43,529 nucleotides of DNA from a virus: IMG/VR virus record IMGVR_UViG_3300020404_000348, positions 1 through 43,529 of that record; one strand, written 5' to 3'. Positions 8,000 to 19,976 of the stretch are shown one piece after another. The notes under the pieces were generated by a model. That model searched no databases, was not told where the DNA came from, and saw only the letters and a list, made by a program, of their open reading frames with translations. The position numbers and the translations under genes were made by a program. Positions within the stretch are counted from its first letter, which is position 1, and the number at the start of each line of letters is the position of its first letter.

Positions 8000-8548
8000 T
8001 TACAGCTCAGAATGACGAGGAAAGATTCTTTTCTCTCTTTCCGTTAGAGTTGTGTTGTAGGCATACAATCGACAATCATGAAAGGGTAAGCATTTCTTTT
8101 TATCTATCTTTCCCTTTACATTACACTCTTTCGTTGGGTACTTTAAAATAGTTTCTTTATCTGCACATATAAACTTATTTCTTTGTCGATTAATCCAAAC
8201 CATAATAAATGGTATTGGTTTTTTTAAAAATTTCATTTTTCTATCAAGGAAGCTTACATGTTGATAGTGGCGTGGCCACTCACCATTCCAAGGAACCATC
8301 ATTTCTAAATCAAATGTATATCCCAACACACCATTCTTTTTTACTCCAAGATCTACACCATAATCTCCATCTGGTTTTGAGACCCATTCTGCATCCGTCT
8401 CATTTTTACCCATACTGGATTGAAAGAATTTCATGAAACTCACAAATGCTTTGATGTCTTTATCATCATCGTATCTGCCATATTTACGATCTATTCTTTC
8501 ACTATATTTTCCGATATCGTCTCGGTTTACATATTCACGTACATTCAT
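8000..8548 (-). CDS. Hypothetical protein, possible PD-(D/E)XK nuclease-like
   Basis: About 182 residues from the ATG at 8548 (MNVREYVNRDD); a GTG at 8569 would add seven residues and abut the dCMP deaminase stop. The central part has acidic strand segments (GDYGVDLGVKKNG and GYTFDLEMM) followed by a Trp/His-containing stretch and FLDRKMKFL. This arrangement recalls small PD-(D/E)XK-like phage proteins in which an acidic strand is followed by an R-K-x-K-F/Y segment. I cannot identify the catalytic triad with certainty. It is the last gene of the block that holds the C5-methyltransferase, CmoA-like and deaminase genes, so an association with modified DNA is possible but unproven. Confidence 0.65.
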   Translation of the reverse strand: MNVREYVNRDDIGKYSERIDRKYGRYDDDKDIKAFVSFMKFFQSSMGKNETDAEWVSKPDGDYGVDLGVKKNGVLGYTFDLEMMVPWNGEWPRHYQHVSFLDRKMKFLKKPIPFIMVWINRQRNKFICADKETILKYPTKECNVKGKIDKKKCLPFHDCRLYAYNTTLTEREKRIFPRHSEL

Positions 8549-8569
8549 AATATTAAAAAAGGCGAACAC

Positions 8570-9013
8570 TTAGGGGGCTAGGTAAGTGCGTTTAACTTTT
8601 GATTCGTCAAAGAATTTTTCTGCTAAATGACAGCTTTTTTGCCACTTGTGAGGAATCTTCTCCCACTTCATTACCACTTCAGAAATCCCTACCTGAATGA
8701 TCGCCTTTGCACACTCGTGACAAGTCGGAAGGCCGTAGACAAACATCGTAGAACCATCCAATGAAACTCCGTTGCGTGTTGCGTTGTAGATCGCATTCAC
8801 TTCAGCATGAACAATTCTTTCATACTTTTTTTCTCGATCATCGTAGTATTTTGGATCGTCGTCCATACCTCTTGGGAATCCGTTGTATCCCTGTGAGAGA
8901 ACTTGACCGTGGTTTCCTACGATTATCGCACCTACCTTTTTTGATGGATCTTTGCTCCAAGTGGCGACTTCACCAGCAAGATCATAATATCTGTTTTTCC
9001 ACTGTCCGTTCAT
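8570..9013 (-). CDS. cd: dCMP deaminase
   Basis: A zinc-dependent deoxycytidylate deaminase making dUMP for thymidylate synthesis. From the ATG at 9013 the protein has 147 residues with H69-A-E71 (zinc ligand and catalytic Glu) and P96-T-C98-H-E-C101 (two zinc-binding Cys). An in-frame extension back to 9115 would overlap the CmoA-like gene by about 100 bases. I prefer the start that forms an ATGA junction with the upstream stop, because the protein then begins just before the conserved domain. Together with the serine hydroxymethyltransferase at 10897-12051, which supplies methylene-folate, it feeds a thymidylate synthase that is not in this window. Confidence 0.9.
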   Translation of the reverse strand: MNGQWKNRYYDLAGEVATWSKDPSKKVGAIIVGNHGQVLSQGYNGFPRGMDDDPKYYDDREKKYERIVHAEVNAIYNATRNGVSLDGSTMFVYGLPTCHECAKAIIQVGISEVVMKWEKIPHKWQKSCHLAEKFFDESKVKRTYLAP

Positions 9014-9729
9014 TTCATTGCGATTGCTCCTATAAAGAGATGGTTTTGCCAGAAGGGTTGAATCTTCCTCGAATCGAATCCGGCAGTCTCCAACATTGAA
9101 ATCAATTCTTGCCAAGTGTTAGGCTTCAACATATGTCGAAGAGTCTTTTCCTTATCAAGAATGTCCTTATCTTCAAATGTCTTTCTCTTGTGATCGTAGA
9201 AAGTAAATGTGATCATATCTTGAAGCCTCGAATCAGAAGAAATAGTTTTTTCTGAAAAGATAAATGCACCACCCGACACAAGACTATCGTAGATCTTTTT
9301 CAAGATTCCTTGTCGTTCAGATGGAGGCATAAACTGTAGAGTAAAGAGAGATGTAATCAAAGAATAACTGGATGACTTGAACTTGAAGTTTCGAATGTCC
9401 TCGACGTGAAACTTCGCACGACCCAGTTCTTTTTGTTTAATCTGTTCTTCTCGATTCAACAAACCAGTATGAAACCCACTTGCATACTCAACTCCAACAT
9501 AAAGAGTCTTAGGAGCGAATGAGCGATTCTGTTCCATCATGGCCATGATGGTTTTTCCGGTTGAACAACCAATGTCCAGAACCATTTTGTCTGAATCATT
9601 CTCAACAAAGTATTGAGAGAGATTCACTACATCGTCGTGGAGGTTAGAGTAACCTCGAATCGAATCTTCGATGTGGTTGTCAAACCCTTCTTCTCGATGG
9701 GCAAAGGTAAAATCAGGTGTGTTTTTCAT
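9010..9729 (-). CDS. CmoA-like SAM-dependent enzyme (carboxy-SAM synthase family)
   Basis: The 239-residue protein aligns by eye along its whole length with E. coli CmoA (247). Shared features are GYSN (26-29 here), motif I LDIGCSTG (51-58), DIR (111-113), the hallmark FTLQF-x-x-PSERQ (129-140), GGAFIFSEK (153-161), and DHKR with the following helix and AGF (216-218). CmoA makes carboxy-S-adenosylmethionine from SAM and prephenate; CmoB then uses it for the cmo5U34 wobble modification. The Arg of E. coli CmoA that binds the cofactor carboxylate (R199) has no unambiguous equivalent by eye; K193-E-K195 and R198 are the nearest basic residues. The gene overlaps the C5-methyltransferase by 17 bases and the deaminase by 4, so all three are co-transcribed. 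A plain methyltransferase remains possible. Confidence 0.8.
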   Translation of the reverse strand: MKNTPDFTFAHREEGFDNHIEDSIRGYSNLHDDVVNLSQYFVENDSDKMVLDIGCSTGKTIMAMMEQNRSFAPKTLYVGVEYASGFHTGLLNREEQIKQKELGRAKFHVEDIRNFKFKSSSYSLITSLFTLQFMPPSERQGILKKIYDSLVSGGAFIFSEKTISSDSRLQDMITFTFYDHKRKTFEDKDILDKEKTLRHMLKPNTWQELISMLETAGFDSRKIQPFWQNHLFIGAIAMK

Positions 9730-10864
9730 TGTATATTTTTAGAACATTTTCGTAGACTGCTTCCGCAATCTTTTTCATCATTAGAGGAGGAACCATACGT
9801 CCACAGCGTTCGGCACGTTGATTCCATTTTCCAGTAAGTTTAAAATCATCGGGCAAAGACATAATACGCTTTAATTCGCCTAATGTCAACTTTCTTTTTT
9901 CACTCCAATGAAATGCACCGGCAGTCGTGTCACCACTACCCATGGCTGTTATAGTTGGGGCAGGAACTTCCAGAGAAACTCTCTTGAGATTAAAGTGATG
10001 ACCCTTTGGATGGTAGTCCATACCAGTCAGAACCTTCTTTGGAAAAGTCTCCATCTTAGATCCAGTATCTCTCCAGTAGGCAGTTTTAGAGAACTTGTCT
10101 GTCAAGTATTGAACCTCTTCTTTGTCATAGTCCAGACCAACCAACGCATCTTTCAAAGGAATGACTTCTTTGCTCGGTTCCGGAAACACATGACCGATTG
10201 TCATAAAGTTCAAACCGACTTCGTCCATCACGTCATTACGAATCGCGATAAAGATTACACGAGTCCTTGTTTGAGAAACACCATAGTAACGAGAATCCAG
10301 AACCTCGTAAGAAGGAGAATATCCAATCTCTTCAAAGGTGTTCAGAATACGCTTCAAGTATCCTTTGGCTTCTCCGATAGTCAACCCTTTGACATTTTCC
10401 GCAACAATCACCTTTGGCTGAATGTCCTTTGCGACACGAAGAAACTCAAAGAAAAGATCTTCGATGTTCTCAACGATCTTACCATCAGAATAGTTTTTAG
10501 TTTGCCCCCATCCATCCGAATGACTTCCACCCGAAGAATGGGAAAGTTTTCCGGCAACAGAAAAAGCAGAGCAAGGGGGAGATCCATCAAGAATATCCAA
10601 CTCACCTTCCTTGAGACCAACAAGATCCAAAAAGTCTGAACCCTTCAGTTCTTTGATATCGCCTGGAATGATAGGAGTGTTCGGATAGTTCTGTGCATAA
10701 GTGTTCTGAGCTTCTTCAACAAACTCGTTAATACAAAGAACATTTCCTCCGGCAAGTCGATAACCAGTCGAAGAACCACCACCACCCGCAAAGGTAGATA
10801 TTACATTAAATTTGTTTTGTTTCGATGCCTCAATTACATCTTGTAAATTATAAGATTTATACAT
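9713..10864 (-). CDS. C5-cytosine DNA methyltransferase with altered motif X
   Basis: A 383-residue C5-cytosine MTase with all main motifs in order: motif I FAGGGGSSTGY (25-35), E47 (motif II), motif IV GSPPCSAFS with catalytic C98, motif VI E156-N-V, motif VIII QTRTR (198-202), motif IX around 301-341, and motif X at 354-360. Motif X reads C-G-R356-M-V-P-P where most family members have G-N-(A/S)-V-P-P. In M.MpeI the Asn at this point is N374, and its change to Lys gave carboxymethyl transfer from carboxy-SAM. The overlapping downstream gene encodes a CmoA relative, which makes that cofactor in cells. The target-recognition region (about 205-300) gives no clue to sequence specificity. The product could therefore be 5-methyl- or 5-carboxymethylcytosine. 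No cognate restriction enzyme is evident. Confidence 0.92.
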   Translation of the reverse strand: MYKSYNLQDVIEASKQNKFNVISTFAGGGGSSTGYRLAGGNVLCINEFVEEAQNTYAQNYPNTPIIPGDIKELKGSDFLDLVGLKEGELDILDGSPPCSAFSVAGKLSHSSGGSHSDGWGQTKNYSDGKIVENIEDLFFEFLRVAKDIQPKVIVAENVKGLTIGEAKGYLKRILNTFEEIGYSPSYEVLDSRYYGVSQTRTRVIFIAIRNDVMDEVGLNFMTIGHVFPEPSKEVIPLKDALVGLDYDKEEVQYLTDKFSKTAYWRDTGSKMETFPKKVLTGMDYHPKGHHFNLKRVSLEVPAPTITAMGSGDTTAGAFHWSEKRKLTLGELKRIMSLPDDFKLTGKWNQRAERCGRMVPPLMMKKIAEAVYENVLKIYNEKHT

Positions 10865-10871
10865 TTATACT

Positions 10872-10900
10872 ACTATGTACTATTTTCACCTATTTGTCAA
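10872..10900 (-). promoter_or_regulatory. Sigma70-like promoter of the C5-methyltransferase gene
   Basis: Perfect -35 TTGACA (10895-10900), 17 bases, weak -10 CATAGT (10872-10877), then 7 bases to the ATG at 10864. The -35 overlaps the end of the serine hydroxymethyltransferase gene. No Shine-Dalgarno sequence lies between -10 and ATG. Confidence 0.6.
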
Positions 10901-12051
10901 CACAATATATCAGAAATTTTATTCGCGAGATTCTCGAACCATTCAGTATCTCCGCCGTGTCGAGTCGTTTCAGCGGCAGTACCAATTCGTATTCCGCTCG
11001 TCTCGGTGAATGCTCTTGGATCGTTTGGAATCCCATTCTTGTTGACTGTGATACCATTCTCTTCAAGAAGATCAGCGGCTTCACGTCCACTGTACTTACT
11101 CTTAGATAGATTCAACAAAAGGATGTGACTGTCTGTTCCATCCGTTTGAATTTTGATACCTCGTTTCCGAAAGATCTTTCCCATCGCCTGTGCGTTTTCA
11201 ACGACATTCAACGCATAGGTTTCAAACTCCGGTTTCAGCGCCTCGCGGAAACATTGTGCCTTTGCCGCAATGATATGCATCAGTGGGCCACCTTGAGTGC
11301 CGGGGAAAACGGCGCTGTTGATTCTTCGAGTGTAATCTTTCTTGTTCCACAAAATGATCCCACCTCGTGGCCCTCGAAGAGTCTTGTGAGTTGTTGAAGT
11401 GACTACATCTGCATAAGGAAATGGAGTCTCGTAAGCGGATCCTGCAATCAATCCAGAATAGTGTGCGATGTCTGCGAGAAGATACGCTCCACACTTTTGT
11501 GCGATTTCGTAGAACCGCGAAAATTCAATTTGTCTTGGATAAGCACTCGCTCCCGCAACAATCATTTTTGGTTTTATTGATAGGGCTTGTTCCTCGATTT
11601 CTTCGTAATCCAACATACCTTCATCATCCACACCATAGGAATATGAGTGGTAAATTTTACCGGATATGTTCGGCGGACTTCCATGCGATAGATGCCCACC
11701 TGAAGCAAGATCCATTCCAAGAATGATATCGCCAGGTTTTAGAAATGCTTGATATACGGCGGTATTCGCATTGGCGCCTGAGTGTGGTTGGACATTTGCA
11801 TACTTACAACCAAAGAGAGACTTCACCGTTTCGATGGCCAGATCCTCGATCTCGTCCATATGATCACAACCGTTATAGTAGCGCTTCTTTGGATATCCCT
11901 CGGCGTACTTATTTGTGAAGACACTTCCGCAAAACCACATTACGGCCTCGCTTGCGAAGTTCTCACTTGCGATCAGTTCAATGGTTTTGTGCTGACGAAC
12001 CTGTTCGTTTTGTAAAATTCTTAGAACGTCTCTGTCTGGTTCTATGCTCAT
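10897..12051 (-). CDS. glyA: Serine hydroxymethyltransferase
   Basis: A 384-residue PLP enzyme converting serine and tetrahydrofolate to glycine and methylene-tetrahydrofolate. Hallmarks are IELIASENF (24-32), NKYAEGYPKKRYYNGC (47-62), SGANAN (91-96), DIAHYSGLIA (194-203) and the PLP-lysine K223 in TSTTHKTLRGPRGG. All key residues appear intact, so it should be active; it is slightly shorter than the usual 410-430 residues. It starts in an ATGA overlap with the upstream methyltransferase. The most economical role is supply of one-carbon units for thymidylate (and possibly glycine) during DNA synthesis. A link to DNA base modification is possible because methyltransferases flank it on both sides. 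This is a bacterial metabolic gene, unusual in T4-like phages. Confidence 0.95.
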   Translation of the reverse strand: MSIEPDRDVLRILQNEQVRQHKTIELIASENFASEAVMWFCGSVFTNKYAEGYPKKRYYNGCDHMDEIEDLAIETVKSLFGCKYANVQPHSGANANTAVYQAFLKPGDIILGMDLASGGHLSHGSPPNISGKIYHSYSYGVDDEGMLDYEEIEEQALSIKPKMIVAGASAYPRQIEFSRFYEIAQKCGAYLLADIAHYSGLIAGSAYETPFPYADVVTSTTHKTLRGPRGGIILWNKKDYTRRINSAVFPGTQGGPLMHIIAAKAQCFREALKPEFETYALNVVENAQAMGKIFRKRGIKIQTDGTDSHILLLNLSKSKYSGREAADLLEENGITVNKNGIPNDPRAFTETSGIRIGTAAETTRHGGDTEWFENLANKISDILC

Positions 12052-12905
12052 AGTTTTTCTTCTCCTGCAATTTCGTGATTCATATTAGTGTTCTGCCAAG
12101 AAATGATTCTCTCCTTGGCCGTGTTGAAAATTTCGGTGTCGCGTTCGATTCCTATGAACTTTCGTCCACTTCGAAGACAGGCAATCGCAGTTGACCCACT
12201 ACCCATTGAGAAGTCGAGTACAGTTTCGCCTTCGCGGGTGTATGTTCTCACCAGATATTCGAGTAGATCGACGGGTTTTTGTGATGAGTGAATTCGACAC
12301 TTAGGATCGACTACGGCGAAATCAAGAGTTGTCTTTGGATATCGCGTAGTAACACCGCCTGCGTAGTCTCTTTTGTTTGTCCCATGCCATAACTGTCCAA
12401 CACTACTTCCCTTGGCGGATTGCGTCGGTTTGTGACCTTCGCTCATCTGTGGATAATAGCGGCCGGGCTTACGATAGAACACGTTGATTTCTTCATGGGC
12501 CCGGAGCGGTTGTCGCTTCGCGTGAAAGAAGTTCGTGGCTATATTTTTCGTCCATATCCAACTATATTTGTGGTTCTGGATCTGGCTTGCAATCAGCGGG
12601 TGCGTGAATGGATTCGCGGAGTGTAGAGCGATCACTCCATCCTCGTCCAAGGAATTCCATAGAAGCGGCCACAACACCGGCCAATCGAGATGTTGATCCC
12701 AGTGACAAGCGGTTGACCCAAACGGCGGATCGGTTATAACGGCATCGGTCTTTATTTCTCGAATCACATCCATACAATCTGCGTTGTAGAGCGTAACACA
12801 AGATGGAATTTTCTCATTCTTATTACCGAAAATTTTGTCCCAGTTTTGCTGCATTTGTGCATCGGGAATCTGTTCCAACCGTCTTTTGCTTCCCTTGCCA
12901 TTCAT
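12048..12905 (-). CDS. DNA methyltransferase, beta-class amino-MTase (N6-adenine or N4-cytosine)
   Basis: A 285-residue amino-methyltransferase in which the catalytic motif IV D59-P-P-F comes first and the SAM-binding motif I DFSMGSGST (231-239) near the C-terminus, the circular order of the beta class. Other expected parts are QKPVDLLEYL (209-218) and FIGIERD (motif II-like). A DPPF/Y motif is more usual for N6-adenine, but N4-cytosine is not excluded. A basic N-terminus (MNGKGSKRR) may touch DNA. It lies two bases after a small gene, overlaps the serine hydroxymethyltransferase start, and is transcribed from the promoter at 13288-13342. It is probably a solitary methylase that protects phage DNA. 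Confidence 0.9.
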   Translation of the reverse strand: MNGKGSKRRLEQIPDAQMQQNWDKIFGNKNEKIPSCVTLYNADCMDVIREIKTDAVITDPPFGSTACHWDQHLDWPVLWPLLWNSLDEDGVIALHSANPFTHPLIASQIQNHKYSWIWTKNIATNFFHAKRQPLRAHEEINVFYRKPGRYYPQMSEGHKPTQSAKGSSVGQLWHGTNKRDYAGGVTTRYPKTTLDFAVVDPKCRIHSSQKPVDLLEYLVRTYTREGETVLDFSMGSGSTAIACLRSGRKFIGIERDTEIFNTAKERIISWQNTNMNHEIAGEEKL

Positions 12906-18920: not shown

Positions 18921-19976
18921 TTAACCATTGAGAAATCCTTTCATAGTGACTAATTTCCCTTCTTCCATCGCCTTTCTTTGAAATTCATTTGTTAGTTGAG
19001 GAATGATTCCAAGTAAATTGTAACCCTTTTCTTTAGGACAATCTATATTTACGTTAGGAATTTTAGAACTGACAGCACCAAACATTTTTCGATATAATCT
19101 ATCAACTGTTTGAATGAAATCTTTAGTCTTCTCTTTTGCCTCAGTCTCATATGGAGTATTTGAGTACAAAATCAATGACGGTAACTCTCCTTTTGCAAGA
19201 GAAGGTACAATTTTTTCAGCAAAGAAGAGAGGAGCTCTCCTTCCTCCAGTTTGAAGTAAAGATATATCATCATCTATGTTAATGCCACGGGTTAATAACC
19301 AACCTTTCCATTCCTCTCTGGTTTTACATCTAATAAGCCTATTTTTAGTATCAGTCATCTTGTGAACTTCGTTCACTATTTTAGAAATGATGTTGTTACC
19401 AGAACCATAGAATCTTTCTACGCTATAATCGGTTATTAGTCTCTCTCTGATTTGATTGCGATCTCTCTCAATCACATCCTCTGTTATGTCACAAACTAAG
19501 GCCCCAACAAGAGTGTGATATTCTGTTCTCTTTCCGTAAGGTTGTCTGTTTGACTGAATGCCGATTACTCTATCTATGCCCCCCTCGTTCCTTCTTTCTT
19601 TAACAGTACGAACTAACATTACGGGCATATATTTCTCTCCTAGTTTTCGAAGCTCATTTTCACGAGTCCTACCGTCAAGAAGTTTTCCAGTGTAAACATT
19701 CTGTATTGGTGGAAAAAACGTGGAAAGAAATCCATCGTTTTCAAAATCGACAGACAACTCTGGTGCATCTGGAGTTCCCTCAGACCTAACGCCCTCGTTA
19801 TCATCCATCTCAGGATCAATCTTTCGATATTTGAAACAGGAACCATTAGTATATACTGGTTCGCAGGCCTCGGGAAGATGTTTCTGTATTTCAGAACTAT
19901 TGAAATTAGTCTCTAAGGAGACCAGATCAAAACTTCTACCGAGTATTGTTCTAACACTATTTGTGTTGTTTTTCAT
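18921..19976 (-). CDS. ParB/sulfiredoxin-fold domain protein
   Basis: A 351-residue protein. Residues 95-123 (YTGKLLDGRTRENELRKLG and following MPVMLV) match the ParB N-terminal/sulfiredoxin pattern (hydrophobic, D-G-x-x-R, helix, L-G, P-V-h-V), which in ParB binds CTP and in relatives carries nuclease or ATP-dependent activities. D101-G-R103-T-R105 would contact the nucleotide. The rest is charged and helical with no recognisable HTH that I can point to. It stands alone, with its own promoter (20058-20087), a leader of about 75 bases without a Shine-Dalgarno, and its own terminator. A role in transcription, chromosome handling or host takeover is open. Confidence 0.65.
   Translation of the reverse strand: MKNNTNSVRTILGRSFDLVSLETNFNSSEIQKHLPEACEPVYTNGSCFKYRKIDPEMDDNEGVRSEGTPDAPELSVDFENDGFLSTFFPPIQNVYTGKLLDGRTRENELRKLGEKYMPVMLVRTVKERRNEGGIDRVIGIQSNRQPYGKRTEYHTLVGALVCDITEDVIERDRNQIRERLITDYSVERFYGSGNNIISKIVNEVHKMTDTKNRLIRCKTREEWKGWLLTRGINIDDDISLLQTGGRRAPLFFAEKIVPSLAKGELPSLILYSNTPYETEAKEKTKDFIQTVDRLYRKMFGAVSSKIPNVNIDCPKEKGYNLLGIIPQLTNEFQRKAMEEGKLVTMKGFLNG

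Follow-up and report, generated by a model that had tools for sequence, protein, structure and literature searches.

Two overlapping genes in a T4-like phage fragment very probably form a CmoA–CmoX module that makes 5-carboxymethylcytosine (5cxmC) in phage DNA, as judged from their homology to a characterized pair. The fragment is the 43,529-base IMG/VR virus record IMGVR_UViG_3300020404_000348, referred to here in its full length as the window. The earlier note knew of no natural pair of this kind, but Yang et al. (Nat Commun 17:281, Dec 2025; PMC12783734) have described one from Synechococcus phage S-B43, which makes the window pair one more example of a known system, not a first. New here are the absence of the ligase CmoY from the fragment and a ligase slot that varies among near-identical relatives.

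In S-B43, SpCmoA makes carboxy-SAM (Cx-SAM) with a kcat of 2.33 per s, SpCmoX uses Cx-SAM as its sole cofactor to place 5cxmC in GC motifs, and SpCmoY joins glycine to 5cxmC (PMC12783734). The pair confers resistance to HhaI, the products were identified by LC-MS, and the phage DNA contains the glycine amide 5gcxmdC and no 5cxmdC (PMC12783734). In the 1.9 Å structure 8YF3, Arg350, which replaces Asn304 of HhaI, touches the carboxymethyl group, and the R350N mutant uses neither cofactor (PMC12783734). The same study listed 5,615 candidate CmoX proteins from IMG/VR and other sources, with 4,257 CmoA proteins in those contigs (PMC12783734).

The window derives from a T4-like myovirus, carrying UvsX, family B polymerase, RegA, sliding clamp, capsid and portal genes, and its recognisable genes lie on the minus strand. 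The nearest matches of its major capsid protein come from Pelagibacter, Methylophilales and Synechococcus T4-like phages (55–59% identity). A near-identity DNA search with region 9010–12051 matched no isolate. The locus is arranged as follows.

8570..9013, minus strand: dCMP/cytidine deaminase-family protein, downstream neighbour (PF00383, 5.6e-21)
9010..9729, minus strand: cmoA homologue, predicted carboxy-SAM synthase, 239 aa (TIGR00740 best family; 51% identity to assayed SpCmoA; CmoA/YecO best PDB folds)
9136..9138, minus strand: CmoA Arg198 codon, for the residue proposed as the shifted carboxylate anchor (E. coli position 203; from alignment)
9713..10864, minus strand: cmoX homologue, predicted DNA cytosine C5-carboxymethyltransferase, 383 aa (8YF3 at 1.3e-150)
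9797..9799, minus strand: Arg356 codon, for the residue predicted to bind the Cx-SAM carboxylate (aligned to SpCmoX Arg350; 80/80 relatives)
10571..10573, minus strand: codon of catalytic Cys98 (SPPC; aligned to SpCmoX Cys98)
10865..10896, minus strand: unoccupied ligase slot, from the SHMT stop to the cmoX start, where relatives carry ligases
10897..12051, minus strand: serine hydroxymethyltransferase (SHMT), upstream neighbour (PF00464, 3.1e-144)
12048..12905, minus strand: N4/N6 DNA methyltransferase, second DNA-modifying gene nearby (PF01555, 2.7e-25)

The cmoA and cmoX reading frames are both complete and overlap by 17 bases, and the stop codon of cmoA shares the sequence ATGA with the probable deaminase ATG, so that the three genes look translationally coupled. 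Relatives L009 and L010 support this ATG; a 181-aa version of the deaminase, read from a TTG, probably starts too early. The window and its relatives share a promoter-like TTGACA sequence where SHMT ends. The N4/N6 methyltransferase is not required by the model. Elsewhere in the window, positions 582–2348 encode a 588-aa protein whose N-terminus resembles a cytidylyltransferase and whose C-terminus is a DUF5824 region. A 189-aa frame at 8000–8569 has no Pfam or PHROG match, and a 65% identical relative lies directly 3′ of cmoA in contig L011.

Chance cannot account for the pair. The methyltransferase matches the Pfam DNA_methylase family (PF00145) at 1.2e-56 and, among PDB chains, Cx-SAM-bound SpCmoX (8YF3) at 1.3e-150, the next chain following at 1e-21. 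With 62% identity over the aligned part, it is by sequence an orthologue of S-B43 CmoX. The Cx-SAM contacts F25, E47, F48 and D69 are the same residues with the same numbers in both proteins, and the nucleophile motif S95-P96-P97-C98 is kept. Motif X reads C-G-R-M-V-P-P, with Arg356 aligned to SpCmoX Arg350. The earlier note's reading of the locus, a CmoA relative overlapping a complete C5-methyltransferase by 17 bases with Arg356 in this motif, is thus borne out in every element.

The target-recognition region (residues 215–320) shares only 43% identity with its S-B43 CmoX counterpart, and the GC target of S-B43 cannot be transferred for this reason. GC depletion was considered as a footprint of such a target and rejected as lineage composition, the GC dinucleotide value of 0.69 in the window recurring as 0.68 and 0.64 in the sister contigs L085 and L088, which have no cmoX. 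An AlphaFold model of the window CmoX (mean pLDDT 46) was discarded and adds nothing. CmoX of Erwinia phage Y3 (L123:2965-5094) contains an intein-like insert, roughly 340 aa long, that begins after SPP with CFTENTLIHTAEG and ends with VVHN. It lies directly before the catalytic Cys, which would therefore be the first residue after splicing; similar inserts occur in CmoX from the Dickeya AD1 and Yersinia fHe-Yen9-02 records.

The 239-aa partner contains the CmoA motifs GYSN, LDIGCSTG and FTLQFMPPSERQ. Its best NCBIfam model is TIGR00740 (CmoA; 1.7e-29, 103 bits), below the curated cut-off of 193, as is the proven synthase SpCmoA (116 bits), to which it is 51% identical. The six best PDB matches of its predicted fold (mean pLDDT 88) are E. 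coli CmoA and H. influenzae YecO. In E. coli CmoA, Arg199 forms the salt bridge to the carboxylate (PMC3663124). The earlier note's doubt about this Arg is real, the position being Glu194 here. Its loss is no argument against activity, because SpCmoA has the same change and is an active Cx-SAM synthase. SpCmoA and each of the 76 full-length relatives have Glu at this position. Four residues further along that helix, at the position of E. coli Glu203, the window has Arg198, and the 76 relatives have Arg (71) or Lys (5). We infer that the carboxylate anchor may have moved by one helical turn, with Arg198 taking over. CmoAs of the PaBG/Erwinia type retain both Arg199 and Glu203, and Mcat8 CmoA has neither Arg nor Lys at position 203. 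On these alignments, Arg199 does not define the phage CmoA branch, and the E. coli Arg199 rule is unusable for finding phage CmoAs.

The association between the motif X Arg and cmoA extends well beyond the window. Among the 80 nearest IMG/VR methyltransferases, the Arg is invariant (80/80), and cmoA is present with the cmoX–cmoA order kept in 78; the contigs of the other two end 6 and 168 bases past the methyltransferase match. All six isolate records with an Arg methyltransferase also carry cmoA: S-B43, S-CRM01, Mcat8 (Moraxella), TurkishDelight (Streptomyces), Y3 (Erwinia) and PaBG (Pseudomonas). The Mcat8 match is weak (E=1e-5) and belongs to the gene directly after the methyltransferase. 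No cmoA was found in the ten isolate records with Asn (6), Met (3) or Leu (1) at this position, in a small sample that we picked from the similarity ranking and that is a survey, not a census. The earlier note had worried that Arg in motif X might occur in ordinary phage methyltransferases and had proposed a family survey for such enzymes without cmoA; the survey came out in favour of the module. As it tracks cmoA across phages, the motif X Arg is a cheap marker for carboxymethyltransferases. The window pair independently backs the published view that many phages carry 5cxmC modification.

Arg is not the sole state that accompanies cmoA, as Gly methyltransferases lie beside cmoA in two Staphylococcus phages. 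Staphylococcus phage vB-SscS-F1 (L136:3992-6510) and an SPbeta-like phage (L137:3947-5646) have cmoA(-cmoY)–C5-methyltransferase operons in which the methyltransferase carries GSPC and a motif X of VGGVINQ, with Gly instead of Arg. The close relatives Perkons (L146) and Javan172 (L147) have the ordinary AGNS/AGNA, and no cmoA was detected in them. Such enzymes are possibly a second, independent kind of carboxymethyltransferase, which the published filter for SPPC and Arg350 would miss.

In the proposed mechanism, CmoA would convert SAM and host prephenate to carboxy-SAM, the carboxylate of which would be bound by Arg356 in place of the motif X Asn. CmoX would then move the carboxymethyl group to C5 of a cytosine within a short target, and the resulting 5cxmC would presumably protect the phage DNA from host restriction. 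The assignment of these activities draws on 62% and 51% identity to the S-B43 proteins and on the retention of all key CmoX residues. Through the LC-MS data and the Cx-SAM-bound structure of the orthologous S-B43 system, the route put forward in the earlier note, from carboxy-SAM through Arg–carboxylate binding to C5 carboxymethylation, is well supported. Its proposed product fares less evenly: the CmoX step to 5cxmC is supported, and S-B43 DNA carries 5gcxmC, not bare 5cxmC. The alternative that the enzyme is an ordinary 5-methylcytosine methyltransferase with a neutral Arg, beside a CmoA serving the tRNA pathway, finds some support in general models, which score both proteins as members of SAM methyltransferase superfamilies. 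It is scarcely credible given that orthologous SpCmoX accepts Cx-SAM exclusively and loses the use of both cofactors as R350N, that Arg and cmoA co-occur across phages, and that the cmoX and cmoA genes overlap; a CmoB-like gene for the tRNA pathway was not found among the families scanned.

The ligase is the most variable piece of the SHMT–deaminase interval. Within the 43.5-kb window, tblastn, profile and PF00733 searches found no CmoY, AsnB or PF00733 protein and exclude a relocated amide ligase of these types. The slot between SHMT and cmoX is also empty in L004, which is identical to the window across these genes, and in L005 and L008, whose CmoX proteins are 94–97% identical to that of the window. 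CmoY occupies it in L006, L007 and L009 (CmoX 96–97% identical); L009 CmoY is 48% identical to SpCmoY, and L006 and L007 carry an extra gene before CmoY. In L010 (CmoX 94% identical), the slot contains a 474-aa AsnB-type glutamine-dependent synthetase with a glutaminase domain (566–1990), directly before cmoX, which is a candidate maker of 5-carboxamidomethylcytosine. Some other relatives have CmoY about 2 kb downstream of cmoA, away from cmoX. The gene directly before CmoY in L006 (8118–9179, 353 aa) is 26% identical to one in the window (18921–19976, 351 aa) located 8 kb from cmoX; neither has a Pfam family or an assigned role.

Three contigs that lack both cmoX and cmoA show other contents for the same interval. 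In L085 (1360–2948) SHMT is followed directly by the deaminase, in L088 (137–2306) by a Dam-type N6 methyltransferase, and in L118 (158–2091) by a thymidylate synthase-like gene. These variable contents point to a site at which DNA-modification and nucleotide genes are exchanged. With the slot empty or holding CmoY or an amide synthetase in near-identical relatives, sister phages probably end up with different final modifications. These near-isogenic natural variants (empty, CmoY, AsnB) allow the last hypermodification step to be compared on the same CmoX core.

What becomes of 5cxmC in this phage depends on the genome beyond the fragment, and the end product would be 5cxmC itself unless a ligase sits in the unsequenced part. 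At just under an even chance, we propose that this phage, like S-CRM01, has no amide ligase, that 5cxmC is terminal, and that the slot swaps ligases to yield different modified cytosines on one CmoX core. Both ligase types are absent from the complete S-CRM01 genome and from the 200-kb contig L053, each of which has CmoA and CmoX. As S-CRM01 demonstrates, phages can carry CmoA–CmoX with no known ligase, which makes bare 5cxmC plausible as the final product. The other prospect, which we place marginally below the midpoint of probability, is that 5cxmC is an intermediate, to which CmoY or another amide ligase encoded outside the 43.5-kb fragment adds glycine or another amine. It is favoured by S-B43 DNA, which holds only the glycine amide, by the CmoY-type ligase found on the contigs of 38 of the 80 IMG/VR relatives, and by the filled slots described above, three with CmoY and one with the AsnB-type protein. 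Against it stand S-CRM01 and L053, together with the searches of the window, which a ligase of another fold would escape. The adjoining SHMT might also be counted in the module, supplying glycine for amide ligation to 5cxmC, since it makes glycine and adjoins cmoX in the window and CmoY in L009. SHMT is also found in sister phages without cmo genes (L085, L088 and others), which leaves a glycine supplier unsupported, and it is absent from the other cmoX loci. We regard this role as very unlikely, and SHMT probably serves nucleotide (thymidylate) metabolism outside the module. For the pair itself, all features accessible to sequence analysis identify CmoA and CmoX, and the preferred reading remains a CmoA–CmoX module that would make 5cxmC.

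Among known systems, S-B43 is the closest in that its CmoX (62%) and CmoA (51%) are orthologous by sequence, the key residues are kept, the genes are neighbours and the phage is T4-like. The gene order is cmoX–cmoA with a 17-base overlap in the window and cmoA–cmoY–cmoX in S-B43. The window fragment also differs in having no CmoY, in its SHMT and dCMP deaminase neighbours and in its target-recognition region (43% identity). S-CRM01 (NC_015569; SCRM01_149c and 148c) resembles the window in its directly adjacent CmoA and CmoX without CmoY. Its order is cmoA–cmoX, its CmoA and CmoX are 51% and 59% identical to those of the window, and the pair is annotated merely as tRNA and DNA methyltransferases. 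The engineered M.MpeI N374K is likewise a C5-methyltransferase that can use Cx-SAM once its motif X Asn is exchanged for a basic residue (cited in PMC12783734); that enzyme was made in the laboratory, carries Lys and targets CG, whereas the window methyltransferase is natural and has Arg. The window CmoA shares the Cx-SAM synthase family and fold of the bacterial CmoA of tRNA cmo5U synthesis (E. coli, 4gek/4iwn), but it has Glu194 for Arg199, no CmoB partner and a score below the TIGR00740 cut-off.
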